IMG/VR virus record: IMGVR_UViG_3300034071_003115
Location: 1 to 64,000 of that record
DNA: 64,000 nt
From: a virus
Reading direction: 5' to 3' (one strand)
Made by a program: the position numbers and the translations under genes. The notes below the pieces were generated by a model that saw nothing but the letters and a program-made list of their open reading frames with translations, did not search any database and was not told where the DNA came from. Shown here one piece after another: positions 48,725 to 64,000 of the stretch. Numbering within the stretch: position 1 is the first letter of the stretch; the number at the start of each line of letters is the position of its first letter.

Positions 48725-48875
48725 GGCACCCTGTGCTGCTGTTAGATCTCTAACCCCCTCACAATGTAAATAAATAAATAAGAGGAATAAGTTCCACGGG
48801 CGCGCCTCCGGCGCGTACGGCCCGAGAAAAAAAATCTCACGGAGTAGAAGCCTGATGATGGGTGCAGCGGCGGCA
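48725..48875 (+). promoter_or_regulatory. Leader element E8
   Basis: Dyad GTTAGATCTCTAAC (48741-48754, perfect), TAAATAAATAAATAAG, AATAAGTTCCACGGG, hairpin CGCGCC-TCC-GGCGCG (48801-48815), GAGAAAAAAAATCTC, CCTGATGATGGGTGCAGCGG. Confidence 0.7.
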
Positions 48876-48933
48876 CTACGGCGAAGGAGCCGATGTGATG
48901 GTGAAGCGTCGCAGGTAGCATTGGAGGTTCACG

Positions 48934-49293
48934 ATGAGTGCAATGAAGCGCATTGCAATCGCATTGGAGCGTGGTGCTCAACTCACCACGCACGATTGGA
49001 AGTTTGTTGAGAATCGCAGCAACTCGCTGCAAGCGCGTGTCGCATACGCGCAACTTCTCAACGAGTATGTTGTCGAGTTTGCGCGAACGCTCGACACCGC
49101 CGACCACGCGGTCGACGCAATCGAATCGCCGCACGATTACGCGGGAGAGATTGCCGCGTGGTTGTCGGAGAATCGCGACGAGCACGACGAGGAGATTGCT
49201 GCTCTCGGTCGATGGGAGTGCGCGGATTGCGACGCGGTTGCAACGCGTATGGACATCTACATCGACGAAGCAGAAACCTGCATCGTTGAGTGA
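48934..49293 (+). CDS. Cassette protein ending in a WECxxCDA motif (119 residues)
   Basis: ATG 48934 with GGAGG upstream. Helical body; C-terminal WECADCDAVA and a final Cys, as in the product at 47884. First gene of a four-gene cassette. Confidence 0.65.
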   Translation: MSAMKRIAIALERGAQLTTHDWKFVENRSNSLQARVAYAQLLNEYVVEFARTLDTADHAVDAIESPHDYAGEIAAWLSENRDEHDEEIAALGRWECADCDAVATRMDIYIDEAETCIVE

Positions 49294-49299
49294 AGCAAA

Positions 49300-49332
49300 G
49301 GAGTGTGGAAGCGCGCGGCGCTTCCACACTCC
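49300..49332 (+). promoter_or_regulatory. Intercistronic hairpin, loop CGCGG
   Basis: 14-bp perfect stem (GGAGTGTGGAAGCG) between the first two genes of the cassette. Confidence 0.8.
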
Positions 49333-49353
49333 ACAAGTTTGGAGGACAGCACA

Positions 49354-49674
49354 ATGAGCAAGAAAGCAAAGCAAACAAAGCGCACAGCAACGGAGTCGAT
49401 CGGCGTGATCAACAAGTTGCTTGCACGCAGCATTGAGCAGCGCGCGCTTGCTGCCGATGTTGTCGAGTTTGAGCGCGCAACACTCGTGGAACTTGCGATC
49501 GAGTCGAAGCCAAACAAGAAGTTGGTTGCGAAGTCGGAAGCGGCACTCGCAACGGCAACGGCAACGCTCGCATACTTCGAGGAGAACACGCGCACGCTGC
49601 AAGCGAAACTTGCAAGCGCGATGAAGTCGGTTGCGAAAGCAACAGCGAAGCAGCGCGACGCTGCTAACGCGTAA
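49354..49674 (+). CDS. Ala/Lys-rich helical cassette protein (106 residues)
   Basis: ATG 49354 with GGAGGAC upstream. Basic N-terminus (SKKAKQTKRTATES), then long coiled-coil helices. Could bind nucleic acid. Confidence 0.6.
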   Translation: MSKKAKQTKRTATESIGVINKLLARSIEQRALAADVVEFERATLVELAIESKPNKKLVAKSEAALATATATLAYFEENTRTLQAKLASAMKSVAKATAKQRDAANA

Positions 49675-49679
49675 TCACA

Positions 49680-49712
49680 GCGGGGTGCGGGCGCGCGGCG
49701 CTCGCACCTCGC
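49680..49712 (+). promoter_or_regulatory. Intercistronic hairpin, loop CGCGG
   Basis: 14-bp stem with two G-T pairs (GCGGGGTGCGGGCG). Nearly identical to the one at 49965; with the flank to the start codon it forms a repeat of about 62 nt. Confidence 0.75.
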
Positions 49713-49732
49713 AACAGCATTGGAGGTTCACG

Positions 49733-49954
49733 ATGTTTGACGATGACGGAAATCTTTCTTGTGAGTGGTGCCACGCAACAGAATCGGAAACAGAGATCAA
49801 AAAGGAGTGGGACGATCACGAGGGAAACAGCGTCACGATTTATGGAAGCAATCGAAACGCGCTTGCTCTTTGTCGTCAATGCTTCTACGAGTCGCAACTC
49901 GACGAAGCAATCAGCGATCTCAAAGAGGTTTATCGCAAACTCGCGGAAGGTTGA
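49733..49954 (+). CDS. Zinc-ribbon cassette protein (73 residues)
   Basis: ATG 49733 with TGGAGG upstream. CEWCHATES and CRQCFYES form a four-Cys site as in DksA/TraR-like ribbons; the rest is helical. Confidence 0.65.
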   Translation: MFDDDGNLSCEWCHATESETEIKKEWDDHEGNSVTIYGSNRNALALCRQCFYESQLDEAISDLKEVYRKLAEG

Positions 49955-49964
49955 TCAAACAAAT

Positions 49965-49997
49965 GCGGGGTGCGGGCGCGCGGCGCTCGCACCTCGC
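49965..49997 (+). promoter_or_regulatory. Intercistronic hairpin, loop CGCGG
   Basis: Second copy of the 49680 hairpin, 22 nt before the start at 50019. Confidence 0.75.
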
Positions 49998-50459: not shown

Positions 50460-50568
50460 CCTGGGTGCTGCTGTTAGATGTCTAACACACAAGCGATAAG
50501 TAAATAACATAAATAATATAAACGGGGAATAATATAAGTTCCAACATTACGGGCCGCGGCCCGTAATG
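50460..50568 (+). promoter_or_regulatory. Orphan module at the array junction (E9/P0)
   Basis: The plus-type module (dyad GTTAGATGTCTAAC at 50473-50486, GATAAGTAAATAAC, ATATAAGTTCC) is followed not by a TCC-loop stem but by a minus-type palindrome (arm CATTACGGGC, 50545-50568). No gene follows on the plus strand; the next gene comes from the other side. Confidence 0.7.
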
Positions 50569-50584
50569 CCCCCACAAATGTTAT

Positions 50585-50613
50585 GCCCCCGCAAGTCCCA
50601 GACCTGCGGGGGC
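50585..50613 (-). terminator. Hairpin ending the minus array
   Basis: GCCCCCGCA/TGCGGGGGC just after the last minus stop codon; no T-run, so possibly weak. Confidence 0.6.
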
Positions 50614-50620
50614 TAGTTAG

Positions 50621-50830
50621 TTAGCGGCGGTCCCAGAGGTACTGCGAGCCGTCCCAATCATCCTCGTACATCATCGCGTCCTTGTCGCCAAGCAGCGCAG
50701 CAGCCTCGGCGCGAAGTTCATCGCGGAACTCCTTACCGCAATAGTCGTGGTACCAGACTCCGCTGAACTCGTCCGTCCACTTGCCATCCTCGCTCGTGAT
50801 TGTTTCGCTGCACCAATCGCACCTGAACAT
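50621..50830 (-). CDS. Zinc-ribbon cassette protein (69 residues)
   Basis: FRCDWCSETI...YHDYCGKEF gives C-x2-C and HxxC ligands near the N-terminus; the C-terminus is acidic (MMYEDDWDGSQYLWDRR). AAGGAGGC precedes ATG. Last cassette of the minus array. Confidence 0.65.
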   Translation of the reverse strand: MFRCDWCSETITSEDGKWTDEFSGVWYHDYCGKEFRDELRAEAAALLGDKDAMMYEDDWDGSQYLWDRR

Positions 50831-50944
50831 TTCTGCCTCCTTATTGCTACCACCCCAAGCGGGGTACCCCCATCATAGAGTCGCCATTTCCAATCCGTCA
50901 AGCCCCTAGTTTCGGGAGAGTCTCGTGCGCCGCGGCGCACGAGA
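50831..50944 (-). promoter_or_regulatory. Cassette control region U1
   Basis: Palindrome arm TCTCGTGCGC with CGCG centre (50921-50944), -35 TTGACG (50896-50901), 18-nt spacer, -10 TATGAT (50872-50877), leader hairpin CCCC-GCTT-GGGG, then AAGGAGG. Here the palindrome lies about 20 nt further from the -35 than in the other units. Confidence 0.8.
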
Positions 50945-50951
50945 GCCGAAC

Positions 50952-50989
50952 AAAAGAAAACGCCAGCGGGGGTAGCATCCCGCTGGCGT
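50952..50989 (-). terminator. Terminator
   Basis: ACGCCAGCGGG/CCCGCTGGCGT followed on the minus strand by TTTTCTTTTG. Confidence 0.9.
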
Positions 50990-51009
50990 GTTGCTAACGA
51001 TTGTGCGCG

Positions 51010-51294
51010 CTATCCGCGATAGTAGTCCATCTTGTCAATGAACTCATCATCAACATTGACCGAGTTGTATGAAACCGAGAATCCCTTCTTCTCCATCGCC
51101 GCGATGAAGAGAGGCGCATCGCAATCTTCTTCTAGGTAGACGCTACCATTGCGCTCATACGAGCAGTTGCTCACCTTGTCCGCGATACCAAGCGTGCGAA
51201 GCATTGCCTTCTCCGCTACGAGGTATCCGTGCCCTGGCGTGGATACGAACCGCGTCACATAGGTTGCTTGGATACCGAAGTCCCCTCCAAACAT
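51010..51294 (-). CDS. Cassette protein, unknown (94 residues)
   Basis: Start at 51294 after AAGGAGGC; the longer frame runs into the leader hairpin. VTRFVSTPGHGYLVAEKAMLRTLG, then GSVYLEEDCDAPLFIAAMEKKGF: an alpha/beta sandwich pattern. Not recognised. Confidence 0.6.
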   Translation of the reverse strand: MFGGDFGIQATYVTRFVSTPGHGYLVAEKAMLRTLGIADKVSNCSYERNGSVYLEEDCDAPLFIAAMEKKGFSVSYNSVNVDDEFIDKMDYYRG

Positions 51295-51401
51295 TATTGC
51301 CTCCTTATTGCTACCCTCACGGCAACTGCCGCAAGGCAATACTACGCGAACTCCCGCTTGCTTGTCAAGCGTTCTATTCCACCCTGCCGCGGCAGGGTGG
51401 A
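51295..51401 (-). promoter_or_regulatory. Cassette control region U2
   Basis: Palindrome arm TCCACCCTGC, CGCG centre (51378-51401); GAAC; -35 TTGACA (51363-51368); 18 nt; -10 TAGTAT (51339-51344); leader hairpin CGGC-AGTT-GCCG. No separate terminator lies between this palindrome and the previous gene. Confidence 0.8.
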
Positions 51402-51428
51402 GCCGACCCTAATACCTGCCGCTTTCGT

Positions 51429-51758
51429 TTACGCTTCCGCGTTCGCCGTCTGCTCCTGCTCGTTGCGAATCGCTTCGTCCGTGTGATGGCTCGCGATTTC
51501 CGTCCAGTTCACCGACGAGAGGCAACCGCCCACGAAGTCCGCAACTAGTCCCGCGGGCTGCTCGCCGATGAACTCCTCAACCTGCTCGCGAATCCATCGC
51601 CCCATCTCATAGGCGGAGAAGTTTGGGTCGCTGTCGTTCGTTTCTGCAAAGTAGCGCGCCTGCTCACCAACCTCAAAGAGGTCAAGCAGCCCCTCCTCAA
51701 TCCAAAGATTGGTGACCCAAGTTTCCCAGTTCGTCCAGCCATTGTAGCCTTCGCTCAT
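51429..51758 (-). CDS. NGWTNWETW-family phage protein (109 residues)
   Basis: Start 51758 after AAGGAGGC; the 146-residue frame begins inside the palindrome and is rejected. YNGWTNWETWVTNLWIEE is a signature of a small family found in many phages (DUF7249-like by memory), with an acidic C-terminal half. Function unknown. Confidence 0.7.
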   Translation of the reverse strand: MSEGYNGWTNWETWVTNLWIEEGLLDLFEVGEQARYFAETNDSDPNFSAYEMGRWIREQVEEFIGEQPAGLVADFVGGCLSSVNWTEIASHHTDEAIRNEQEQTANAEA

Positions 51759-51862
51759 TTTTGCCTCCTTGCTACCTAGCGGGAAGTCCCCGCCACTGAA
51801 TACTAAGCGAACTCCTAGCCGCTCGTCAAGTGTTCTATTCCAACCTGCCGCGGCAGGTTGGA
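51759..51862 (-). promoter_or_regulatory. Cassette control region U3
   Basis: Palindrome arm TCCAACCTGC, CGCG centre (51839-51862); -35 TTGACG (51824-51829); 18 nt; -10 TAGTAT (51800-51805); leader hairpin GCGGG-GACTT-CCCGC; AAGGAGG. Confidence 0.8.
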
Positions 51863-51870
51863 GCTCCACA

Positions 51871-51904
51871 AAGAAACAACGGCGGGGATTTCTCCCCGCC
51901 GTTG
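51871..51904 (-). terminator. Terminator
   Basis: CAACGGCGGGGA/TCCCCGCCGTTG, then TTTCTTTG on the minus strand. Confidence 0.9.
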
Positions 51905-51925
51905 TCGTTCCCGATTTTGTGCGCG

Positions 51926-52333
51926 CTACTTGATTGGGTAGTTGCCCAGTTCTAGCAGCGTCTTGATTTCCGCAGCCTGTTCATCGGTGAGGGCGAGAGT
52001 CTTGCCGTCCTCGTCCTCTGCGGTGAGTACGCAGTTGCCATAGATGTTGTCCGCGTACCCTCCCAGGATTTCGTTGCGGAGTGATGTCGCCGCATGATTG
52101 CGGAGGACTGGCTCGTTGTAGAGACCTTCCTCGTCGCACCAGAGCACGACGCTAGTTGCGCCATACTTGCCAGAAACCGCAACCTCCGTCATGTCCCACT
52201 CGCCTACTCGGTAGAGTTCGGTGAGCGTGTTGCCGTCATCGTTGAAGTCCACGACCTCAACCCAGTTGAACAGCGCGGGCGTTGAAGCACCAACTTCAAG
52301 CGCACCGACTCCGAACTTGATTGCCTTACCCAT
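51926..52333 (-). CDS. DUF3846-like cassette protein (135 residues)
   Basis: ATG 52333 follows AAGGAGGC. YNEPVLRNHAATSLRNEIL, GGYADNIYGNCVLT and DEDGKTLALTDEQ correspond to the pattern of DUF3846 (NPxA...IxGxVVV), an uncharacterised phage and plasmid family. Confidence 0.6.
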   Translation of the reverse strand: MGKAIKFGVGALEVGASTPALFNWVEVVDFNDDGNTLTELYRVGEWDMTEVAVSGKYGATSVVLWCDEEGLYNEPVLRNHAATSLRNEILGGYADNIYGNCVLTAEDEDGKTLALTDEQAAEIKTLLELGNYPIK

Positions 52334-52438
52334 TTTCCGCCTCCTTGCTACTCATCGGGAAGCCCCGACACCAGAATCTTACGCGATAAGTTCCAGACCT
52401 GTCAAGGGTTCAAATCCAAGTCGCCGCGGCGACTTGGA
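52334..52438 (-). promoter_or_regulatory. Cassette control region U4
   Basis: Palindrome arm TCCAAGTCGC, CGCG centre (52415-52438); GAAC; -35 TTGACA (52400-52405); 18 nt; -10 TAAGAT (52376-52381); leader hairpin TCGGG-GCTT-CCCGA. Confidence 0.85.
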
Positions 52439-52443
52439 GCCGA

Positions 52444-52491
52444 ACAAAATGATGAGGGTCTGACTGGCACCACACCAACCAGACCCTCATC
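52444..52491 (-). terminator. Terminator of the ncRNA unit
   Basis: 12-bp stem at 52451-52462/52480-52491 followed by ATTTTGTTC; the T-run merges into the GTTC of element U4. Confidence 0.9.
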
Positions 52492-52687
52492 GGCATTTCG
52501 CTGCCTTTGACGCTTATCCTCTTGCGAGGAGAGGCTTCACCTCTCGGCTACCTCTTGCGAACGGCATAGGTGTCGGTTAGGCACCCCCACCGCTCGTCCT
52601 TATCGTCTCGGGTAGTTCGTCTACAACTACCAACCAGCCGCAGCCCCATAAGCCCGCCACCTTCACAGCGGCACCAGAGCGGCTCGT
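52444..52687 (-). ncRNA. Candidate structured non-coding RNA, about 240 nt
   Basis: A complete transcription unit (own promoter and terminator) without a convincing long reading frame. It holds local stems GGTAGTT/AACTACC, GAGAGG/CCTCTC and a GNRA-capped TCCTC-GCAA-GAGGA, plus a repeated CGCAAGAGG. The terminator stem GATGAGGGTCTG/CAGACCCTCATC ends it. Alternatives are micro-proteins: a 34-codon frame with AAGGTGG upstream and a 29-codon GTG frame. It lacks the AAGGAGGC leader of the coding cassettes. Confidence 0.55.
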
Positions 52688-52755
52688 GAGGTGATTCTAA
52701 ACGAACATCTTCCAGCCGTCAAGAGTTCTAATCACACGGGCCGCGGCCCGTGTGA
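52688..52755 (-). promoter_or_regulatory. Cassette control region U5 (ncRNA)
   Basis: Palindrome arm TCACACGGGC, CGCG centre (52732-52755); GAAC; -35 TTGACG (52717-52722); 17 nt; -10 TAGAAT (52694-52699). Confidence 0.8.
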
Positions 52756-52761
52756 GGTGAA

Positions 52762-52788
52762 CAAAAAAGGCGAGGTTTCCCTCGCCTT
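52762..52788 (-). terminator. Terminator
   Basis: AAGGCGAGG/CCTCGCCTT, then TTTTTTG on the minus strand. Confidence 0.9.
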
Positions 52789-52807
52789 TCTTGACCAGAC
52801 CCCCCGA

Positions 52808-53089
52808 TTACTTGACTTCGTAGACCTCGCCGCCAAAGCGAACCGCCGTGATTGCGTCAAGCGCAACCGAACGATACGCCTTCTTGGTGATGTCGTAGAC
52901 GAAGATGAGGTCTTTCGCCGCCGCGTCATACGCAGCCTCACCGCCTTTGAGATGCTTCTTGACTCCGAGTCGCGCCGTCATCTTGCGAACCTCGCCCGTC
53001 GTGCGCTTCACGAAGTCCACGCCGAAGATTGCGCCGTTGCTGTTGCGAATCATTTCGGCTGCCTCTGCCAACTTGATTGCCTTGCTCAT
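52808..53089 (-). CDS. WYL_2-like Sm/SH3 beta-barrel protein (93 residues)
   Basis: Start 53089 after AAGGAGGC. FGVDFVKRTTGEVRKMTARLG, GVKKHLKGG, and AYRSVALDAITAVRFGGE match the WYL_2 (formerly DUF2693) family, small SH3-like barrels in phages and plasmids, sometimes linked to nucleic-acid binding. Length is typical. Confidence 0.75.
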   Translation of the reverse strand: MSKAIKLAEAAEMIRNSNGAIFGVDFVKRTTGEVRKMTARLGVKKHLKGGEAAYDAAAKDLIFVYDITKKAYRSVALDAITAVRFGGEVYEVK

Positions 53090-53192
53090 TTCTGCCTCCT
53101 TGCTACTCTGCCCCAATCGGGGTACTCCGATTCTAAGCGAACACCTAGCCAGCCGTCAAGGGTTCTATTCCAAGTGGCCGCCGCCACTTGGA
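53090..53192 (-). promoter_or_regulatory. Cassette control region U6
   Basis: Palindrome arm TCCAAGTGGC with CGCC centre (53169-53192); -35 TTGACG (53154-53159); 18 nt; -10 TAGAAT (53130-53135); leader hairpin CCCC-GATT-GGGG. Confidence 0.85.
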
Positions 53193-53197
53193 GCCGA

Positions 53198-53223
53198 ACA
53201 AAAATGCCGCCCGAAGGCGGCAT
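53198..53223 (-). terminator. Terminator
   Basis: ATGCCGCC-CGAA-GGCGGCAT, then TTTTTGTTC on the minus strand. Confidence 0.9.
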
Positions 53224-53237
53224 CTTTGCTTTCTGGA

Positions 53238-53576
53238 CTACTCGGCTTGGTGGAGCGCGATGATCTGAGCCATCTCGCGCTCGGCTGCCCACTCCTCTGA
53301 GAAGGCAACGAAGTCAATGAATCCATCGTTGCGCCAATGGACGACGATGTTGCCGAACCTGTCGTAAGTCCCATCAAGTTCAGTTGAGATCATCTCATCT
53401 GGCTGAGCGAAACCTTCCAACATATCGCCGTAGATTTCAGCGAACTTTAGATCGTATCCGTCAAGACGAGGAGCGACCTTTGGATCAACGAACCAATCGC
53501 CCCTGCAACTGCCCTGTGAGCATTGAAACTTTGTGAAGTCGCCCTTTGTGAGTGAGACTGCCAGAGCCTTGAACAT
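53238..53576 (-). CDS. Cassette protein, unknown (112 residues)
   Basis: Start 53576 after GAGGAGGC. CSQGSCRGDWFVDPK suggests a disulfide or metal pair; RFGNIVVHWRNDGFIDFVAF is a beta hairpin. Not recognised. Confidence 0.6.
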   Translation of the reverse strand: MFKALAVSLTKGDFTKFQCSQGSCRGDWFVDPKVAPRLDGYDLKFAEIYGDMLEGFAQPDEMISTELDGTYDRFGNIVVHWRNDGFIDFVAFSEEWAAEREMAQIIALHQAE

Positions 53577-53680
53577 TTGAGCCTCCTCTGCTACCGCCCC
53601 AAGTGGGGTGAACCCATTGTAATCAAACTTCTCGCAAGGTGTCAAGAGGTTCTAGTGGAACAGGCCGCCGCCTGTTCCAC
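53577..53680 (-). promoter_or_regulatory. Cassette control region U7
   Basis: Palindrome arm TGGAACAGGC (13-bp-like extension to GTG), CGCC centre (53655-53680); -35 TTGACA (53640-53645); 18 nt; -10 TACAAT (53616-53621); leader hairpin CCCC-ACTT-GGGG. Confidence 0.85.
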
Positions 53681-53685
53681 CTGAA

Positions 53686-53726
53686 CAAAATACAAGACCC
53701 TCGGAGCCGTCGCCCCGAGGGTCTTG
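53686..53726 (-). terminator. Terminator
   Basis: CAAGACCCTCGG/CCGAGGGTCTTG, then TATTTTG on the minus strand. Confidence 0.9.
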
Positions 53727-53801
53727 CTTCGGATTTGTTGTCTAGGGACTAATCACTTTCCCTAGACTCCTTTTCCTTCCGCTCCGCCGATCCATTGGCA
53801 C

Positions 53802-53897
53802 CTAGCGGTCATCGTCCTTTGCGTCTCTATACCCGCATTTTTTGGCTGCGGCATCTGCTCGCTCGTCCAGAGTCTCACCTAGTCGGTGTCGCTTCAT
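53802..53897 (-). CDS. 31-residue acidic/basic micro-protein, or part of a small RNA
   Basis: ATG 53897 with GGAAGCG 9 nt upstream; product includes LGETLDERADAAAKKCGYRD. The transcript (about 53914 to 53686) continues past the stop through GTCTAGGGA/TCCCTAGAC, a 9-bp stem, to the terminator, so about 100 nt are untranslated. The unit may be coding, non-coding or both. It shares GGACGAGCG with the ncRNA at 52444. Confidence 0.45.
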   Translation of the reverse strand: MKRHRLGETLDERADAAAKKCGYRDAKDDDR

Positions 53898-53993
53898 CTA
53901 GAATCGCTTCCGACAAGTGGATTCTCCCACACCCGAAACAGACCTGTCAAGCCCCTATTTCAGTTCCATTCCAATCACCCGCCGGTGATTGGA
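53898..53993 (-). promoter_or_regulatory. Cassette control region U8
   Basis: Palindrome arm TCCAATCACC, CGCC centre (53970-53993); -35 TTGACA (53945-53950); 18 nt; -10 GAGAAT (53921-53926). The usual leader hairpin and AAGGAGG are missing here. Confidence 0.75.
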
Positions 53994-54007
53994 GCCGAAC
54001 TATTTAT

Positions 54008-54349
54008 TTAGTTTGCTGGTGCTTCTGAGGAAGCGATTGCGTCGCTCAACGAGTAGAAGACAGGGTGTTCGTATCCGTTGCCTAGTTCTGATTTGTGAAT
54101 CAACTCAAACCACGAGTTATTTATCCACTCAAATCGCTCAATGTCTTTCTCCGCCTCTGCGAGTTTCTCGTCGGAGTCTATGCCGACATCTTCCAAGTCC
54201 CTCGTCGTGCGAAGATGGACAAACTGCCCATCATCTCGCTTGTACCTAATGTTCATCTCGCCACACCTGAACACCAGATAGTCGCCGAGGTCTTTGATCG
54301 CCTCGTCGTCTTCGTGATAGGTGTAGAAGGCTGCGTCTTCCCTGCTCAT
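54008..54349 (-). CDS. Cassette protein, unknown (113 residues)
   Basis: ATG 54349 overlaps the upstream stop (ATGA). DLGDYLVFRCGEMNIRYKRDDGQFVHLRTT and a helical, acidic C-terminal half. Second gene of a two-gene cassette. Not recognised. Confidence 0.6.
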   Translation of the reverse strand: MSREDAAFYTYHEDDEAIKDLGDYLVFRCGEMNIRYKRDDGQFVHLRTTRDLEDVGIDSDEKLAEAEKDIERFEWINNSWFELIHKSELGNGYEHPVFYSLSDAIASSEAPAN

Positions 54350-54570
54350 ACACAACCCAGAACGGAGAATCCGTCTGCCGCGATTCCTTCCAGAATCGGT
54401 TCGGCATAGCGTGGCTCAACGACAAGAGCCTGACCCCAATAGGTCGCCTCCGAGTCCACCCTATCGCGCAGCCACGAGCGAGCCTCTGCTGTGAGTGGGG
54501 TGATGAGGGTAATCGTTCCCTCGCTTACGAACGAGAAGTCCGCGAAGTCGGACTTATCTCCCTTTCCCAT
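54346..54570 (-). CDS. Cassette protein, unknown (74 residues)
   Basis: ATG 54570 after GAGGAGGC. TITLITPLTAEARSWLRDRV and YAEPILEGIAADGFSVL: a short alpha/beta fold. Not recognised. Confidence 0.6.
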   Translation of the reverse strand: MGKGDKSDFADFSFVSEGTITLITPLTAEARSWLRDRVDSEATYWGQALVVEPRYAEPILEGIAADGFSVLGCV

Positions 54571-54676
54571 TTCTTGCCTCCTCTTTCTGCGGCACTACTT
54601 CGCCGCAAGACAAGGGTACAACAGCGACCACTAGGTCGTCAAGAGGTTCTAGTCAAACGGGCCGCGGCCCGTTTGA
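54571..54676 (-). promoter_or_regulatory. Cassette control region U9
   Basis: Palindrome arm TCAAACGGGC, CGCG centre (54653-54676); -35 TTGACG (54637-54642); the best -10 is weak (TACCCT, 54613-54618); leader hairpin TGCGGC/GCCGCA with an 8-nt loop. Confidence 0.7.
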
Positions 54677-54683
54677 GGCGAAC

Positions 54684-54726
54684 AAAAAAGAGGGATCAAG
54701 TTGGCTGCGATCAACTTGATCCCTCT
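54684..54726 (-). terminator. Terminator
   Basis: 15-bp perfect stem (AGAGGGATCAAGTTG), then TTTTTTG on the minus strand. Confidence 0.9.
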
Positions 54727-54762
54727 GTTGGGGCGTAGGGGAGGCTCTATCCTACGCCGTAG

Positions 54763-55029
54763 TCATAGTGCCGCGGCTTGTGGCTTGCGGCAGTCGTATC
54801 CTAGCAGGCAACTGAACGGCTCGTGATCAACGGGATCAATCGCCCACTCAAGGCAAGTCCCACAAGATTCACCGCACCAGTTTACTTCGTCCCAGTCAAA
54901 GACAGGGTGAAGATTATTGCCCTCGTTATCCTTCGTGTCTTCGCTGTCAAGCGTATCGCCGAAGCGTGCCTTCGCGCAGGCTAGGCAATGAACGGAAGCG
55001 TCAAACTGCCAAGCGATCGGTGTTGACAT
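54763..55029 (-). CDS. Zinc-ribbon cassette protein (88 residues)
   Basis: ATG 55029 after AAGGAGGA. HCLACAKARFGDTLD and CGESCGTCLEW form two Cys clusters separated by an acidic N-P-V-F-D-W stretch, the layout of a small actinophage family that begins with a hydrophobic WxF... strand. Confidence 0.6.
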   Translation of the reverse strand: MSTPIAWQFDASVHCLACAKARFGDTLDSEDTKDNEGNNLHPVFDWDEVNWCGESCGTCLEWAIDPVDHEPFSCLLGYDCRKPQAAAL

Positions 55030-55133
55030 ACATTCCTCCTTATTCGCAGCGTCGGTACTTCCGACAATCGGATTGTCCCATACCTCGGGCTGTCCGTCAA
55101 ATGTTCCAGCCCAAGCACCCGCGGGTGCTTGGG
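55030..55133 (-). promoter_or_regulatory. Cassette control region U10
   Basis: Palindrome arm CCCAAGCACC, CGCG centre (55110-55133); -35 TTGACG (55095-55100); 17 nt; -10 GACAAT (55072-55077); leader hairpin TCGG-AAGTA-CCGA. Confidence 0.8.
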
Positions 55134-55150
55134 GGCGAACTATTTATTGC

Positions 55151-55384
55151 TCAATACACGCCAGTCCCGCCGCAGCCGCACGCTCCGTCTTGGCACATCA
55201 CGCCCTCGTCAAGCAACATTGCGCAGCCGTACTTATCTGATCGGTGCTCCTCGCACTTCACGCAGTATCGGGAGGGCAGCCCAGAGGAGTTGTTGTCCGC
55301 CCAATACGCAAACGGCTCCTCACAGAAATCACAGGATACTACTCCCTGCGGTTCGCCGACTGGAATCTCAAAGTGGTCGCTCAT
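55151..55384 (-). CDS. Cys-rich cassette protein (77 residues)
   Basis: Start overlaps the upstream stop (TAATG). CDFCEEPF, CVKCEEH and a C-terminal CQDGACGCGG give three Cys clusters. Second gene of its cassette. Confidence 0.6.
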   Translation of the reverse strand: MSDHFEIPVGEPQGVVSCDFCEEPFAYWADNNSSGLPSRYCVKCEEHRSDKYGCAMLLDEGVMCQDGACGCGGTGVY

Positions 55385-55626
55385 TACAGCGCACCATAGC
55401 AGTCATCGCAGAGATTACGAACTTCATCATAGGCGTATTCTGCGCCGTTCCAGCCATAGGAGAACTTTCGCCCCTTGCCCTCAAATGGGCAACGCTTATC
55501 AAGTCGCAGCACTTCCTCGCCCTCGCACTCCTGAACGAGCGGGTGGTCGTGCGTTTCACACTCGCATTGGTCGTAGTAGCAATCTCCGTTGCCACACATC
55601 GTCATTGAGCCTTGTAGGTACGCCAT
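55384..55626 (-). CDS. Cys-rich cassette protein (80 residues)
   Basis: ATG 55626 after AAGGAGGC. CGNGDCYYDQCECETHDH, CEGEE, CPFEG and CDDC. Probably binds two metals. Not related by sequence to its partner at 55151 apart from Cys content. Confidence 0.6.
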   Translation of the reverse strand: MAYLQGSMTMCGNGDCYYDQCECETHDHPLVQECEGEEVLRLDKRCPFEGKGRKFSYGWNGAEYAYDEVRNLCDDCYGAL

Positions 55627-55731
55627 TGTTGCCTCCTTGCTCGCAGCACCCCAAGCGGGGTAGCCCTATTGTAAATCCACTTGCTTCTATCCGTCAAGAG
55701 GTTCTATCCCAGATGGCCGCGGCCATCTGGG
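55627..55731 (-). promoter_or_regulatory. Cassette control region U11
   Basis: Palindrome arm CCCAGATGGC, CGCG centre (55708-55731); -35 TTGACG (55692-55697); 18 nt; -10 TACAAT (55668-55673); leader hairpin CCCC-GCTT-GGGG. Confidence 0.85.
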
Positions 55732-55745
55732 GGAGAACTATTTAT

Positions 55746-55946
55746 TTACTTCCAGTCGCTTGGGATTTCACGCCAAGTCAATCCCCCGTTATCGCAGTCT
55801 GCCGAGTAGATGTCGCACTCTTGACACCACACCACATAGCAGTCCTCTAAATGCTTGTCGCAGTCAGACCAAAGCCAATGCTCTTCCCGCCTATCCATCG
55901 GGCAGTCGCAGGGCTTTCGTTTAGATGTGGGGAATAGGCGGCTCAC
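55746..55946 (-). CDS. Cys-rich cassette protein (66 residues)
   Basis: ATGA overlap with the upstream gene. CDCPMDRREEHW and CYVVWCQECDIYSADC: several closely spaced Cys. Ends 14 nt before the next palindrome. Confidence 0.6.
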   Translation of the reverse strand: MSRLFPTSKRKPCDCPMDRREEHWLWSDCDKHLEDCYVVWCQECDIYSADCDNGGLTWREIPSDWK

Positions 55947-56392
55947 AATACCTCACACCCTTTCAGGTCAGCGCACTTCTCCAAGAACGCCTGCCACTCT
56001 CGGATAAGACCAACCCACGAAGTCGCCTCCTCGCTTGGGAACGCCTTCGTGTGGTCGTCCATAAACGGATTGTTTGCGATTATGGCAATCATTTCGTTTT
56101 TGATTTGCTCATCGCTCATAGACGCGATTTTCTCGGAGAGTGCGCGGCACTCATAGTCCTTGATGACCTCGCCGCTATTATCAAGTAGATTCTCGTTCAC
56201 CTCGTCAAAGCCAATCGCATCGTGGAACTCACGCAACATCGGCATACCCCAGATGTTCAGACGGAAGTAGAGCGTATCGGGAGCCTTCTCGTCATACGAG
56301 CCGTCCTCGTTTACCCACATTGAGCGGTGCTTCTTTGCGTGTTCAGCCGCAGCCTTTCGGTCTGGTAGCAGCGAGTAGATGTCGTATCCCAT
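55943..56392 (-). CDS. Cassette protein, unknown (149 residues)
   Basis: ATG 56392 after GGAGGC. MGYDIYSLLPD at the N-terminus and LYFRLNIWGMPMLREFHDAIG resemble small phage proteins of the MGYDIY type, then helices. Not assigned. Confidence 0.6.
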   Translation of the reverse strand: MGYDIYSLLPDRKAAAEHAKKHRSMWVNEDGSYDEKAPDTLYFRLNIWGMPMLREFHDAIGFDEVNENLLDNSGEVIKDYECRALSEKIASMSDEQIKNEMIAIIANNPFMDDHTKAFPSEEATSWVGLIREWQAFLEKCADLKGCEVL

Positions 56393-56497
56393 TTCCAGCC
56401 TCCTTTATTACAAACCCCAAGCGGGGCAACACCATTGTAAGCAGATTTGCCGTCAGCCGTCAAGGGGTTCTAACCCAAATGGCCGCGGCCATTTGGG
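56393..56497 (-). promoter_or_regulatory. Cassette control region U12
   Basis: Palindrome arm CCCAAATGGC, CGCG centre (56474-56497); -35 TTGACG (56458-56463); 18 nt; -10 TACAAT (56434-56439); leader hairpin CCCC-GCTT-GGGG. Confidence 0.85.
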
Positions 56498-56503
56498 GCT
56501 GAA

Positions 56504-56534
56504 CAAAAAACAAGCCCCCCGAAGGGGGCTTGTT
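56504..56534 (-). terminator. Bidirectional-looking terminator
   Basis: ACAAGCCCCC-CGAA-GGGGGCTTGT with A-run before and T-run after it. Confidence 0.9.
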
Positions 56535-56543
56535 TTTCTTGGG

Positions 56544-56621
56544 CTACTTTCTTACTTCGCTAACGATTGCGTATGTAAACGAAGCGAGCAGAAGAAGAAA
56601 GCCCCAAAACAACTCAATCAT
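56544..56621 (-). CDS. 25-residue membrane peptide
   Basis: ATGA overlap with the DUF932 gene. ELFWGFLLLLASFTYAIV is one span, with a charged end. Short, but the overlap and the terminator right after it support it. Confidence 0.5.
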   Translation of the reverse strand: MIELFWGFLLLLASFTYAIVSEVRK

Positions 56622-57583
56622 CGGGAAAGCGCGAGGACTGCCTCGCGCTTTGTCTTCGCTGCGAAACCTGTGTCTAGCATTACGCTAGAAGCACGAGCGT
56701 CCGAAGCAGAAGAGCGTACCCCGCCGCGATACGAAACGCCATAGTCCAGATACTCGGCGATGGCGTTGTATACGCCCCACTTCGTATCGCGCAAACCTTC
56801 TAGATTCTCCGCGTTATTGAGAATCGCGATTGTTGCCTTCGCTCGCTCCGACATTACTTCCTTCCCACGCTTCTCCGACTCCGACAGCGGGAAGATTCTC
56901 GTGATGACGCGGAATGCCTCATCGCGATCCATCTTCTCCGCGATCATACGCGAGCCGATGACCGAAAACTCCTCAACCGCGCTTGCGGCAAGTCCGAGTG
57001 CGCGCTTCGCCTCTGCGACTTTCTCCTCAATCTTCGCGGTGTGGCGAAGTGTGAACGACATCTTCGCGCTGCCCAACGCTGCGTTGAGCGTGTTCATACA
57101 AACAACGCGGATTGGCGTAATCATCGCTTTGAGTGGGAACAAGCCGTTGTGCCCATTGGCAATCACAAGGTAGGTGTTGGTATCACCATTGTCGCCCTTG
57201 ATCTTGATCCTCTCTGGAATCTCCAACGCGGAGAAGACGATCTGCCCACCTTTGAGTGAACCCGCCGACTCGTAGCGTGCGCCCTCGTCAAGCAACGCGT
57301 CCGCGAACGACATCATCTCGTCGTTCTGGATTGGCGTGTAGCGATCACCGACAACGCCCAAGACCGAGCCATCGGTGCTGCGAACATTTGCGCGCTTGCC
57401 GTTGATCGCGATTTGCTTGCCGTCAAGCGTCGTGAAGATCGGCTGCTGCTTTACTGCCCAATCAAGACCAGCCGCAACGATCATCTCCGCGCTCGTTGTG
57501 AGTCCATTATTGGCAACGCCGAGTTTGTGCCACGGCGCGCCCCTTTCCGCGTTGTATGCCATCGTTTCTACTTCGTGTGCCAT
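56618..57583 (-). CDS. DUF932 (TIGR03299) phage/plasmid protein
   Basis: 321 residues. WHKLGV near residue 19, GVVGDRYTPIQNDEMMSFAD, and IRVVCMNTLNAALG are the landmarks of the DUF932 family, widespread in phages and plasmids and sometimes linked to recombination or methylation regions. Longest gene in the minus array. It has its own cassette promoter. Confidence 0.85.
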   Translation of the reverse strand: MAHEVETMAYNAERGAPWHKLGVANNGLTTSAEMIVAAGLDWAVKQQPIFTTLDGKQIAINGKRANVRSTDGSVLGVVGDRYTPIQNDEMMSFADALLDEGARYESAGSLKGGQIVFSALEIPERIKIKGDNGDTNTYLVIANGHNGLFPLKAMITPIRVVCMNTLNAALGSAKMSFTLRHTAKIEEKVAEAKRALGLAASAVEEFSVIGSRMIAEKMDRDEAFRVITRIFPLSESEKRGKEVMSERAKATIAILNNAENLEGLRDTKWGVYNAIAEYLDYGVSYRGGVRSSASDARASSVMLDTGFAAKTKREAVLALSR

Positions 57584-57686
57584 TTGCGTCCTCCTTTTTT
57601 CTCAACGGCAACTGCCGCTAGATGGATTGTCGCATACTTCCCGAGATTGCGTCAAGTTCTAGTCCAAAGGGCCGCGGCCCTTTGGA
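57584..57686 (-). promoter_or_regulatory. Cassette control region U13
   Basis: Palindrome arm TCCAAAGGGC, CGCG centre (57663-57686); GAAC; -35 TTGACG (57650-57655); 18 nt; -10 GACAAT (57626-57631); leader hairpin CGGC-AGTT-GCCG. Confidence 0.85.
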
Positions 57687-57701
57687 GCCGAACTATTATC
57701 T

Positions 57702-57986
57702 TTATGCGTGTCGGTGCGCTTCTACAAAGTCGCAGTTCGGGATAAAGCACCAGCCTTCATCTCGCGCTTCCGCGTCCGACATAAATGGCGGGTGAAACTC
57801 ACACTCGCAGGGAGCGCAGTCCAAGCAGTAAACCAGATAACCCTCTGGCACACCGCTCTCATACTGATCAAAGTCAAGAACATCAAAGCGCGTGTTTGGC
57901 TCGCCGTTCCACGCACCGATGACTTTCTCATCGGGGTAAACAAGCGGAGCCGAGCAGCGAGTACACGCGTGAAGTTCACCGCTCAT
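57702..57986 (-). CDS. Zinc-ribbon cassette protein (94 residues)
   Basis: Start 57986, within the end of the upstream gene (11-nt overlap). CTRCSAPLVYPDE, CLDCAPCECEF and CFIPNC. Third gene of its cassette; the longer frame from 58136 is a shadow. Confidence 0.6.
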   Translation of the reverse strand: MSGELHACTRCSAPLVYPDEKVIGAWNGEPNTRFDVLDFDQYESGVPEGYLVYCLDCAPCECEFHPPFMSDAEARDEGWCFIPNCDFVEAHRHA

Positions 57987-58152
57987 CGGTAATCTCCTCC
58001 GCGCTCCAAACAATAATCTCTGGCGTAGTGTCCCAAGGTGCTGGCTCCTCTGCCAACTCAAACGCCTTGCCCTCTGCCTCGCCCTGATCCAAGGCTTCCA
58101 CCTCAAACTCGCGATAGCCAGTGTGTTGTAGAACAACGATCCACTTACTCAT
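57976..58152 (-). CDS. Cassette protein, unknown (58 residues)
   Basis: ATG 58152 with GGAGGGC upstream, overlapping the previous stop by 8 nt. WIVVLQHTGYREFEVEALDQGEAE: beta-beta-alpha, like a DUF-type ferredoxin half. Not recognised. Confidence 0.55.
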   Translation of the reverse strand: MSKWIVVLQHTGYREFEVEALDQGEAEGKAFELAEEPAPWDTTPEIIVWSAEEITDER

Positions 58153-58462
58153 TGTCGCCCTCCCACTCTGCGCCCTGCTCAATCAAGGAGAAGAATCCAT
58201 CGTTCGGATTCTTGTCTGGGTGTACGCTCGCAACCGCCTGAACGAATCGCAGCGAGCAAGAGTTCTCGTACCACTCCATAATCGTACTCAACATTTCGTT
58301 AGGGTTGGAATCTTTTGCCTCAATGAGCGTCGTGTAGCCATACTCCTTCATCTGCTCCACCTGCGCGTCGTCAAGCAGAACATAGATTTTGTGGCAATCG
58401 TCAAAGCCGATACCCTTTGCGATTTCCACCATCTCCTCAACCTTGTCCCAACTTACTGCCAT
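58145..58462 (-). CDS. Cassette protein, unknown (105 residues)
   Basis: ATG 58462 after GAGGAGGC. Helical (WDKVEEMVEIAKGIGFDDCHK, DAQVEQMKEYGY). First of three coupled genes. Confidence 0.6.
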   Translation of the reverse strand: MAVSWDKVEEMVEIAKGIGFDDCHKIYVLLDDAQVEQMKEYGYTTLIEAKDSNPNEMLSTIMEWYENSCSLRFVQAVASVHPDKNPNDGFFSLIEQGAEWEGDNE

Positions 58463-58564
58463 TTCAGCCTCCTCACTACAACGGCAAGTGCCGTCTAGTG
58501 GATTGTCGCATACCCAAAGCCCAGCCGTCAAGCGTTCTACCCCAAGGAGCCGCCGCTCCTTGGG
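58463..58564 (-). promoter_or_regulatory. Cassette control region U14
   Basis: Palindrome arm CCCAAGGAGC with CGCC centre (58541-58564); GAAC; -35 TTGACG (58526-58531); 18 nt; -10 GACAAT (58502-58507); leader hairpin ACGGC-ACTT-GCCGT. Confidence 0.85.
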
Positions 58565-58571
58565 CAAGAAC

Positions 58572-58602
58572 AAAAACAAACGAGCCGCCCGAAGGCGGCC
58601 CG
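58572..58602 (-). terminator. Terminator
   Basis: GCCGCC-CGAA-GGCGGC core with a mismatch below it, then TTTGTTTTTG on the minus strand. Confidence 0.8.
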
Positions 58603-58624
58603 CTTGATTACTTGATCTCGAAGA

Positions 58625-59170
58625 TCAGACTGGCTGATTCTCTGGCAGCGCAGCCTCTTCCTTCGTAATCTTTCCCGCTCGGATTGCGTCGCGCAGTTCG
58701 ATGCTCTCTTTGTGTGTGATCGCATCGAGATCAGGGTTGTGCTTCTCTGCGTATTTCAGTTCTTTCAGACCCTCATGCTCCATGCGCTCCATAACGCGCT
58801 TGCGCCAAGCACCAGCGGTTTCGTATGAGGCGTTGGTTTCCAGTCCGATGTGCTGCTCCAAGTCTGCTCTGGTAATCATGCGCGGTTCCCACTTGATGTT
58901 TCCGTCGTCTTCATACCCAGAAAACACAACACTCTTGTCGATCCATGCGACCGAGTAAGCGAGCGCCATGCGCTTCTCCCACTCGTCAAGATTCTCTGGC
59001 GTGATCTCGTTGAGCCCAATGCTCATCGTGTGCCAGATAATCGAGTTGGTGATCGGATGAAGGTACTCCTCACCGCGAGTCGTGCCGTCATGGGCGCTGC
59101 TCCTTGTTGCCGTTCGGTAGCAAACATCGTCCGCGTTCTTTACATTTTTTACTGACCAGTTGAGCGGCAT
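58625..59170 (-). CDS. Cassette protein, unknown (181 residues)
   Basis: ATG 59170 after AAGGAGGC. ITNSIIWHTMSIGLNEITPENLDEW and later DLEQHIGLETNASYETAG; a C-terminal charged helix. Second gene of its cassette. Not recognised. Confidence 0.6.
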   Translation of the reverse strand: MPLNWSVKNVKNADDVCYRTATRSSAHDGTTRGEEYLHPITNSIIWHTMSIGLNEITPENLDEWEKRMALAYSVAWIDKSVVFSGYEDDGNIKWEPRMITRADLEQHIGLETNASYETAGAWRKRVMERMEHEGLKELKYAEKHNPDLDAITHKESIELRDAIRAGKITKEEAALPENQPV

Positions 59171-59179
59171 ACAGCCTCC

Positions 59180-59407
59180 TTACTTCTTCTTGGTGGCGCG
59201 CTTTGCGCCAGACTCACGAATCGCACGCTCCAATCGCTCGGTGCGCTTATCAGCGTGATGGCTGCTGATGACGAAGAACGCCCAGATCGTTGCTGGCAGC
59301 CAGCCGATCAGCGTGAGTTGGAGAACAAGCGCGATGATTGCCTGAACCCATTTGCCAGCAGCCAGAAACCCAAACGCTGGAAAGAGCAACGCCAATAGGT
59401 ACTTCAT
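59180..59407 (-). CDS. Pmp3/YqaE-like two-span membrane protein (75 residues)
   Basis: ATG 59407 after GGAGG. LLALLFPAFGFLAAGKWVQA and a second span LIGWLPATIWAFFVI match the Pmp3/UPF0057 small membrane family, involved in membrane potential in cells. The Arg/Lys-rich C-terminus is longer than usual. Confidence 0.6.
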   Translation of the reverse strand: MKYLLALLFPAFGFLAAGKWVQAIIALVLQLTLIGWLPATIWAFFVISSHHADKRTERLERAIRESGAKRATKKK

Positions 59408-59512
59408 TTTCTACCTCCTTACTTTCTATCGGGAATCCCCGACCACTTGATTTTCTCACGGGTCATAGCGACCTGTCAAATGGTCTACCCCAGACACCGG
59501 CGGGTGTCTGGG
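59408..59512 (-). promoter_or_regulatory. Cassette control region U15
   Basis: Palindrome arm CCCAGACACC with GGCG centre (59489-59512); -35 TTGACA (59474-59479); 18 nt; -10 GAAAAT (59450-59455); leader hairpin CGGG-GATT-CCCG. The left flank is GGTC rather than GTTC. Confidence 0.8.
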
Positions 59513-59526
59513 CGCGAACAATAATA

Positions 59527-59558
59527 AATAAGCCCCGCCATTTCTGGCGAGGCTTATT
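59527..59558 (-). terminator. Terminator
   Basis: AATAAGCC...GGCTTATT with inner CGCC/GGCG, then TATTATTG on the minus strand. Confidence 0.8.
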
Positions 59559-59601
59559 CACACTCGGGCTAACGCTGTGATTTCATCAGCCCTGTATCTA
59601 A

Positions 59602-60414
59602 TCAGCCCCCGACAACGCCGCCGAAGTGTTTATCACAGAACTTCTCAAACTCGTTCATTGGTACGGCATCATAATCACGCTCGCCGTACTCAATCTCGTC
59701 GTCCTCGCCCTTGTGCCACGCTTCGTCTGGCAAATCATCTGCGTTGTAATCACTTACGCTTACAACCTCTCCGTTCTCGTACACAATCTCACCTGCGAAA
59801 CCCATACCGCCTTCGCAGTATCGGTGAGCGATTGCGAGCGTTGGAAACTGCTTGGCGAGCGCGGCAATCACAGGCTCCGCAGGAGCCCAAGCCGTATCAA
59901 AGTTGTACGAAACGATTCCGTCAATCTTGCTATCGTCATCGCCGCGGTCGCTCCATACTTCACCGCAGTTCCACTTGGAGCCCCAGTTAGAAACATTCCA
60001 GTTGTACCACCAGTCTGGGTGCGATGAGTTCTGCTTGACCTTGTGAATCGGACAGATTGGCGTACCGCCAAACATCAGGGCGGTATCATCTTGGATTGTG
60101 CCGTTGCTTGATTCTTCCTTCACAACTGGAATACCATCAACGCACCACTCGCCCTGCTTTCGCATTACATCTTTGCCGTCGTTATCGGTGTACGAAACGA
60201 TTTCTGGTAGGTCATCTCGCTCAACCCACACCTGCTTACAGCCGCATTGGAAATCGTTCTGACCCTCGTTGATTGCGTAGAACTTGCTATCGGGTGGCGG
60301 CACAATCTTCGCAAAGTCGAAGTCGCCCTCGCTGCCCTTCACAAACTCAACCAACCTTGCGACCTCTGCTTCGTCGCCGCTAATGTCTACTTGGTTCACA
60401 CACCAGTTAGGCAT
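59602..60414 (-). CDS. DUF1281-type (YubB-like) protein (270 residues)
   Basis: MPNWCVNQVDISGDEAEV at the start, WWYNWNVSNWGSKWN near residue 135 and an acidic end are the hallmarks of the DUF1281/YubB ferredoxin-like family of plasmids and phages. Function unknown. ATG follows AAGGAGG. Confidence 0.8.
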   Translation of the reverse strand: MPNWCVNQVDISGDEAEVARLVEFVKGSEGDFDFAKIVPPPDSKFYAINEGQNDFQCGCKQVWVERDDLPEIVSYTDNDGKDVMRKQGEWCVDGIPVVKEESSNGTIQDDTALMFGGTPICPIHKVKQNSSHPDWWYNWNVSNWGSKWNCGEVWSDRGDDDSKIDGIVSYNFDTAWAPAEPVIAALAKQFPTLAIAHRYCEGGMGFAGEIVYENGEVVSVSDYNADDLPDEAWHKGEDDEIEYGERDYDAVPMNEFEKFCDKHFGGVVGG

Positions 60415-60534
60415 CTTTCTTTCCTCCTTGTATCACAGACAGGGAAGCCCCTGCCCCTAGATTGTAAGGCAACTTCTAGCCATCGGTCAAGTTGCCAGCC
60501 AGAGTTCTATCTCAACTGGCGGCGGCCAGTTGAG
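60415..60534 (-). promoter_or_regulatory. Cassette control region U16
   Basis: Palindrome arm CTCAACTGGC with GGCG centre (60511-60534); GAAC; then 13 nt more to -35 TTGACC (60485-60490); 18 nt; -10 TACAAT (60461-60466); leader hairpin CAGGG-GCTT-CCCTG. Confidence 0.8.
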
Positions 60535-60556
60535 GGCGAACTAAAATTTTGCGTTT

Positions 60557-60889
60557 TTAGCGATCGAAGGACATTGCGCTAACTCCATCAGGGGTCATAA
60601 CAACATGTCCACCCTCTACGAAGATTCGACCACCGTCGTTCGCTTCATCATCAGATGAAATAACAAGGGAATAACGCTTGCCGCCCTGCTCTACGAATAA
60701 CACTGGCATGTAAGGGTCAGCACCGCCATCGCCTAACACCGTGCCCCCAATAATCGTTGCGCCAATAAGCGGCTCAACCATTTCTGTCCGAAGGTAGTGC
60801 CGCTCAATCTGGTCGCGGCTCAAGCCGAGTCGCTCCTTGACCAACTGGTCTCTGCTGCTCAATAACTGAGCAATCGTTTCCACTGCCAT
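60557..60889 (-). CDS. Cassette protein, unknown (110 residues)
   Basis: Start 60889 after AAGGAGGA; the longer frame is leader sequence. Coiled-coil N-terminus (LLSSRDQLVKERLGLSRDQIERH), then a beta domain (YMPVLFVEQGGKRYSLVI). First cassette of the minus array. Confidence 0.6.
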   Translation of the reverse strand: MAVETIAQLLSSRDQLVKERLGLSRDQIERHYLRTEMVEPLIGATIIGGTVLGDGGADPYMPVLFVEQGGKRYSLVISSDDEANDGGRIFVEGGHVVMTPDGVSAMSFDR

Positions 60890-60960
60890 AACTTCCTCCT
60901 TATGCCTACGGCTAACTGCCGTAGGGGGATTGTAAGCGATCGCTATAACTTGTGTCAAGC
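60890..60960 (-). promoter_or_regulatory. Control region U17, first minus promoter
   Basis: -35 TTGACA (60953-60958), 18 nt, -10 TACAAT (60929-60934), leader hairpin CTACGGC/GCCGTAG. No 24-bp palindrome; only a small GCTTC-CGCA-GAAGC hairpin lies upstream. Confidence 0.8.
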
Positions 60961-61072
60961 CCTCGGGTTCGACCCTCGCTTCTGCGGAAGCTCGGCTACC
61001 CCAAAAAAAACATCTTGTCAAGTCCTCCCCCAAAACGACCCCCGAATAATAACTGAACTTCGGTAGGCCAAC

Positions 61073-63133: not shown

Positions 63134-63329
63134 CCAGGGGGCGGCGGCGGAACTTCGCATAATAGGCCCCTGAATAACTCAAGGGGTATCTAACTACCAC
63201 CCCCGACATAAACGCGTCTCTCCGTGGCGCAAATCGGCACCTACGTCGACGTCTGAGCGTGCCCTGCGGACCCCCTCCTAATAGCAAGCGAAATAACTCC
63301 CGCTATATGCGATGTGAATAACTGGTGTG

Positions 63330-63405
63330 TGGTAGGGACGCCTGGACTCGAACCAGGAACCGCTGAGATATAAGCTCAGTGCTCTAACCGTTGAGCTACG
63401 TCCCC
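63330..63405 (-). tRNA. tRNA-Ile (anticodon UAU) with encoded CCA
   Basis: Minus-strand cloverleaf: acceptor GGGGACG/CGTCCCT (last pair G-U), D stem GCTC/GAGC, anticodon stem CTGAG/CTCAG with loop CTTATAT, T arm CCTGG-TTCGAGT-CCAGG, then A and CCA. The anticodon TAT reads AUA. 73 nt without CCA. Confidence 0.93.
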
Positions 63406-63480
63406 GTATATGCATCGTGAATAACTTCTATGCATTATAGGCTGCCGAATAACTGAACCCCTAATAGGAGGCGAAATAAC

Positions 63481-63669
63481 TCAGTCTTCTGGCTCCCGGT
63501 AAAAGCCGTATGGGTCCCGTGCCGCAGTGATGTCCTTAATGCATCGCATGCACACGACGAATAACGTTTTTGATTCATCTTCTTGCTCGTAGACCAGGGC
63601 AACCTCGTTGCAGAAGTTGCAAATCCCTAGTGGTCTGGGAGTAGGCTCGCTGCCTTGTGCTGTTTTTAT
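63481..63669 (-). CDS. Zinc-ribbon protein with no standard start codon (62 residues)
   Basis: The frame runs from a TAG at 63679-63681 to TGA 63481-63483 without ATG, GTG or TTG before ICNFCNEVALVYE. The AGGGAG at 63674-63679 sits 4-5 nt before ATA (63669), with ATT just upstream. The product has CNFC and CMRC, a clear ribbon, and ends FYREPED. Either a rare ATA/ATT start, a sequencing error, or a remnant. Confidence 0.5.
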   Translation of the reverse strand: MKTAQGSEPTPRPLGICNFCNEVALVYEQEDESKTLFVVCMRCIKDITAARDPYGFYREPED

Positions 63670-63836
63670 AATAACTCCCTATTAGGCGCTGTAATAACTC
63701 ACGTTTGCGAGGGAAAACGCAACGAATGCGCTAGGGGCGTTGAGGGAGGGATTCGGGCGGGGGGTGTCGCAGTGTTTTCGACCCGCCACGCCCTCTACCA
63801 AAACTATCATCTCTTTTATATTCATCAACCCCATCA

Positions 63837-63878
63837 TTATGCACATTCACGCTCAGATATCCACAACGCTGTGCATAA
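63837..63878. promoter_or_regulatory. DnaA-box cluster, possible replication origin
   Basis: TTATGCACA (63837-63845), ATATCCACA (63857-63865) and TGTGCATAA (63870-63878, inverse) each match the TTATNCACA box (one mismatch in the second). An A/T-rich stretch (about 63801-63825) lies beside them. Confidence 0.5.
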
Positions 63879-63889
63879 ACAGCAATCGC

Positions 63890-64000
63890 TTACCCCTGAG
63901 AAATAATCCCCTCATGCACCGTTTCTCCATCGGCTTTCATACCGTATGCGAGGGATTGGCGCATCTCCCAGTGGTTGCTCTGCCCACACATCAACTGCAC
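63890..64000 (-). CDS. C-terminal end of an unknown protein (partial)
   Basis: The minus frame is open to the right edge; 36 residues are visible, including HWEMRQSLAYGMKADGE, ending at TAA 63890-63892. Too short to identify, and possible starts (GTG 64000, ATG 63991) cannot be judged. Confidence 0.35.
   Translation of the reverse strand: MQLMCGQSNHWEMRQSLAYGMKADGETVHEGIISQG

Follow-up and report, generated by a model that had tools for sequence, protein, structure and literature searches.

The stretch analysed here (the window) comprises bases 1–64,000 of a 79,109-base virus record, and the phage is called G000 in the comparisons below. Near the end of the window, the minus strand carries two genes lying within an array of short repeats: a tRNA-Ile (TAT) at 63330–63405, recognized by both ARAGORN and Rfam, and a small Cys-rich ORF with a CxxC..CxxC pattern at 63481–63672, identified from its translation. 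The search of Rfam matched the tRNA alone and no other known RNA family. At the beginning of the Cys ORF (63667–63675, minus strand) there is no in-frame ATG, GTG or TTG in G000, G001 or L091, and the start is probably ATT or ATA; the homologues in relatives have an ATG. Further along lie an AAGAGATGATA block (63805–63815, minus strand), which is common to G000 and a sister group of phages, a cluster of three DnaA boxes (63837–63878), and the 3′ part of an 87-aa ORF (63890–64000, minus strand) that extends past the window end (whole ORF, 63890–64153) and has no Pfam or PHROG match.

Just past the window end, at 64202–64173 on the minus strand, we found a sigma-70 promoter (TTGACA-18-TATACT, an 11/12 match), and a GC-rich block is located at about 64210–64300, outside the window (L002). 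Read on the minus strand, the promoter is followed by the 87-aa ORF, the DnaA boxes, the AAGAGATGATA block, the Cys ORF and the tRNA-Ile. It was the one strong site in a sigma-70 scan, which elsewhere in the region returned only weak 9/12 sites, and both of its hexamers are recognizable in G002, G005 and G006. Since a scan of the minus strand from promoter to tRNA found no terminator-like site, read-through would be the simplest source of the Cys gene and tRNA transcripts.

Structure of the repeat array

The preliminary description of this DNA had reported about eight direct repeats in a single orientation, and this was borne out: exactly eight AGTTATT words (AATAACT in the plus-strand reading), identical in orientation and all on the minus strand, occur at 63173–63699, compared with about 0.025 expected per 540 nt under the genome dinucleotide model. 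The supposed 17-20-mers are 21-nt units composed of two blocks with a mostly variable middle of 8 nt. In seven of the eight copies an A/T box follows as second block, invariably 8 nt after the first (AGTTATT-N8-[A/T box]), and the last base of the N8 is C. None of 20,000 random eight-position sets drawn from the same stretch reached this two-block match, while 20 of 759 circular shifts equalled it. From start to start, the AGTTATT words are 23, 195, 27, 28, 103, 25 and 119 nt apart, an irregular series in which the value of 103 corresponds to the 76-nt tRNA-Ile plus 27. A search for the repeat elsewhere, which the preliminary description had recommended, gave six scattered AGTTATT copies in the rest of the window and no recurrence of the two-block element, which is confined to this one locus.

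Conservation in close relatives and in a sister group

Relatives were fetched from IMG/VR by TerL and the matching locus was then located in the close ones, giving an alignment of seven phages including G000. Repeat 1 (63679–63699, box TAATAG) precedes the Cys gene in all seven, with changing flanking bases. In G005, G006 and G007 it consists of AGTTATT, a Shine-Dalgarno-like stretch and CATATG, whose ATG seems to start the Cys gene, and G008 has a variant (AGGTATT). Repeat 2 (63670–63676), an AGTTATT without second block located where the Cys reading frame begins, is found only in G000 and G001. Repeat 3 (63461–63481, TATTAG), which overlaps the stop codon of the Cys gene, occurs only in G000, G001 and L091; like repeat 8, it is confined to G000 and its nearest relatives. 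Repeats 4 to 7 are kept in both G005 and G006, where repeats 4 (63434–63454, TATAAT; retained as RGTTATT) and 5 (63406–63426, ATATAC) also precede the tRNA-Ile, the last base of repeat 5 standing directly before G1 of the tRNA at the same junction. Repeat 6 (63303–63323, ATATAG), which includes TTATTCACA, lies 6 nt past the tRNA CCA, and its post-tRNA counterpart reads GTTATT in G006, G007 and G008 and GTTATG in G005. The GTTATT of repeat 7 (63278–63298, TATTAG) is kept in G005–G008. Repeat 8 (63159–63179, TATTAT), absent from G005–G008, is directed into the 3′ end of a plus-strand operon, and the hairpin around it is no more stable than shuffled sequences. In G007, at 47773–47848 (L221:7773–7848), the stop codon of the Cys gene is inside the tRNA-Ile and the repeat of the next gene begins right at the tRNA CCA end.

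A group of sister phages (G010, G011, G013, G014, G015, G021 and G027), whose TerL is about 70% identical where known, carries an RGTTATTC array in one orientation and at a single place per record. Where its surroundings were read, the array follows a GC-rich block and AAGATGATA and is itself followed by TTAAG-N4-CTTAA palindromes and then by a sigma-70 promoter that precedes a small gene. G000 has the GC-rich block, AAGATGATA and the array in the same order as the sister phages, in which they make up a noncoding control region, and the orientation of the array relative to this order agrees between the two groups; the homology of the two control regions is drawn from this shared order and from short blocks, not from a full alignment. 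Repeats of the sister group are mostly spaced by 9–18 bp and those of G000 and its relatives by at least 22–28 bp, so that there is no fixed helical phasing, and the sister arrays lack the second A/T box seen in the G000 group. When we scanned without specifying a motif, the array was the top noncoding direct-repeat cluster in G000, G006, G010, G011 and G014, and the top cluster of any kind in G013. Scans of the virus collection with the repeat alone returned mostly unrelated matches. Among 12 genomes compared, homologues of the minus-strand ORF at 60557–61033 were present in all seven that bear the array, and the five genomes lacking an RGTTATTC array had none. What is conserved is an array of short words at one locus and in one orientation, interrupted by small genes in one of the two groups.

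A putative protein-binding array

Since similar arrays recur at a single place in the genomes of related phages, this one probably serves for the docking of a DNA-binding protein. We tentatively favour the reading that the AGTTATT words are cis-acting putative binding sites for a sequence-specific DNA-binding protein, located in a control region of which each genome has a single copy, and that they would govern the leftward unit; a replication origin, neutral repeats and promoters follow in that order of likelihood. The protein would most likely be phage-encoded, and several molecules of it, seated on asymmetric words of one orientation, could build a nucleoprotein array that acts on the unit extending leftward from the 64.2-kb sigma-70 promoter over the 87-aa gene, the Cys gene and the tRNA-Ile, either as an operator or as a transcription-roadblock array. 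What the sequences show directly are the repeats, their conservation and restriction to one locus, the common order of the control region and the promoter sequence; binding, the nature of the protein and an effect on transcription are inferred. In G000 the Cys gene and the tRNA stand between array units, and in the sister phages nothing interrupts the array; the uninterrupted array would presumably be the older form.

All eight repeats are on the minus strand downstream of the minus-strand sigma-70 promoter, the single orientation that would be looked for in an operator or stoperator array. The stoperators of mycobacteriophage L5 are asymmetric repressor sites that are dispersed over the genome and whose repressor is known. 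Our array resembles them in its asymmetric sites, in their uniform orientation relative to transcription and in its location inside a transcribed region, but it occupies one locus instead of being dispersed genome-wide, and its binding protein is putative. The variable spacing, the lack of such an array in G012 (partly fetched), G016 and G018, and the absence of the second A/T box in the sister phages argue against a binding array.

Repeated intergenic motifs without an assigned function are common in phages. The Start-Associated Sequences of Cluster K mycobacteriophages, and comparable motifs in the Microbacterium phage clusters EC, EF, EG and EI, accompany many genes genome-wide, have sequences such as GGGATAGGAGCCC and others, and are of unexplained function (PMC3203893, PMC7302621). 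Like them, the present repeats are short, conserved, intergenic, mostly of one orientation and often placed just before gene starts; unlike them, they stand at one locus, have another sequence and also bracket a tRNA, whereas many genes carry a Start-Associated Sequence, a GGGATAGGAGCCC-like motif, at the ribosome binding site (PMC3203893). A general element placed after stop codons was rejected, as TGA-GTTATT and TAG-GTTATT junctions concern only about 15 of 752 genes. The array offers a clear single locus within a control region conserved across a group of uncultured phages, and together with the contrast between uninterrupted and interrupted forms this makes a role in replication or transcription directly testable; the locus also reveals a place at which small genes enter such phages.

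A possible replication origin

The preliminary description had proposed an origin of replication, which we regard as possible but not favoured, the evidence being mixed. The AGTTATT words would here serve as iterons for a phage initiator, with DnaA boxes and an A/T-rich stretch beside them, where a phage DnaC-like loader would load the host helicase. The DnaA-box cluster at 63837 is indeed present, with TTATGCACA at 63837 (plus strand), ATATCCACA at 63857 (plus strand, one mismatch) and TTATGCACA at 63870–63878 (minus strand); exact TTWTNCACA boxes number eight in the whole genome. The array and the three boxes are within about 200 bp, G005 and G006 retain the boxes, each genome has one array, and a 60-mer at 63800 with 33% GC is among the lowest 0.7%, yet outside the 15 lowest sites. 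The genome also encodes an initiator-like protein (37133–37849; PHROG replication initiation protein) and a helicase loader (at 37923), and the initiator gene itself proved free of iteron-like repeats.

This initiator does not co-occur with the array, its homologues being present in G009, G016 and G017, which are without an RGTTATTC array, and undetected in the array-bearing G013 and G014 (G010 and G012 seemed incomplete for replication genes and were not weighed). We rejected AGTTATT as the iterons of the 37133 gene on this ground and on the lack of iteron-like repeats in the gene; the array may have a different initiator. Moreover, DnaA boxes are absent from the locus in G002, G007 and G008, and none were found near the sister-group arrays. 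The GC-skew check that had been suggested gave a third-position (GC3) skew that is flat, small and patternless; it shows no sign of an origin, is uninformative and was discarded as an indicator. In the iteron origins of plasmids RK2, P1 and R6K, the iterons are typically 17–22 bp long and adjacent (PMC4980987). The array shares with these origins its one-orientation direct repeats near DnaA boxes and A/T-rich DNA, but in place of regular 17–22 bp repeats it has a 7-bp core with an A/T box, irregular distances, genes between the repeats, unlike a compact origin, and no link to the phage initiator. The term iteron-like is apt as a description of conserved direct repeats beside DnaA boxes, and does not carry over to an origin, which we do not favour because of the missing co-occurrence with the initiator, the irregular spacing and the flat skew.

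Neutral repeats, a locus-specific factor or promoters as less likely readings

That the repeats are neutral or recombination-prone, with GTTA-rich words multiplying by slippage in intergenic DNA and serving at most as junctions for the insertion of small genes, seems to us rather unlikely. Other GTTA-type tandem repeats do occur in related phages, such as GGTTATG/GGGTTAT in G009 and several GGGTTAG-type arrays at other intergenic places in G017, and the missing or differing GTTA arrays of G009, G012 and G016–G018 leave room for turnover of GTTA words without any binding. In addition, G007 and G008 have an additional 56-aa gene exactly between two GTTATT units that is absent there in G000, G005 and G006, and in two sister genomes, G011 and G013, the tRNA-Ile is found apart from the array. 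However, position and sequence are kept across diverged phages whose flanks are free to change, and each sister genome has one array, which suggests selection.

An improbable variant is that AGTTATT-N8-TATTAG is recognized, at this locus only, by a putative phage transcription or RNA-maturation factor controlling the tRNA and small-gene cassettes one by one; if so, new genes could be added between the units of an existing binding array.

Very improbable, lastly, is the promoter alternative put forward in the preliminary description; each AGTTATT-N8-TATTAG unit would here be a phage-specific promoter and start a transcript of the Cys gene or the tRNA. Its appeal lies in the two-block structure with an A/T box at a fixed distance, in repeats oriented like the genes, in a box that ends exactly before G1 of the tRNA in three phages, and in a gene for a sigma-70 region 4 protein that five relatives have at most about 3 kb from the array (G007, at L221:8520–8735 on the minus strand, G008, G010, G013 and G014). 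However, no sigma region 4 was found in G000, G005 or G006, and the blocks are 8 nt apart where sigma-70 needs 16–18, so that a sigma-70 promoter at each repeat was rejected. Because the box in G005–G007 contains the ATG of the gene and a Shine-Dalgarno-like stretch stands between the blocks, transcripts must begin further upstream, and in three phages the block cannot work as a -10 box for the tRNA, whose first base comes directly after it. The overlapping tRNA and Cys gene of G007 and G008 have no unit in front of the tRNA, the sister arrays are without the second block, and the two-block element has no further occurrence in the window. The 71-aa sigma region 4 proteins of G007 and G008 comprise little beyond that region.

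In promoters of T7 type, which measure about 21–23 bp, a spacer separates an A/T block from a TATA-like block with G residues at its end. The array units show a similar layout, but the bases between their blocks are variable, the start codon of the relatives overlaps the second block, and no single-subunit polymerase was detected: PF00940 was absent from nine phage records (possibly incomplete), with a positive T7 control, and the T7-type reading was rejected on this ground.

Other repeated elements in these genomes

On the minus strand at 50500–60600 there are at least 12 intergenic cassettes made of GTTC, a perfect palindrome and TAGAAC, followed by a near-consensus sigma-70 promoter (TTGACG/TTGACA...TACAAT) and then, ahead of small genes, by a 5′ stem and AGGAGG. 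They are conserved in G005–G007 and resemble the promoter-stem-loop cassettes of T4-type phages. A second family of intergenic elements, spaced by about 500 bp, combines GTTAGTTATATTAYGG with adjacent GGCGCGGAGCGCC hairpins, at 12560–18076 in G006 (L214), 48434–49969 in G005 and 30244–34944 in G007. We rejected an identity of the array with these GTTAGTTATATTAYGG elements of G005–G007, since in G006, the one checked, they are antisense to the adjacent small genes and their spacing differs. Finally, at 70286–70409 of the genome (L002:8286–8409), two adjoining long inverted repeats have similar centres, CCTGAGGTAY-N3-RTACCGAAGG, and the first of them terminates in GGAATAACC, which is complementary to the repeat GGTTATTCC of the sister group.
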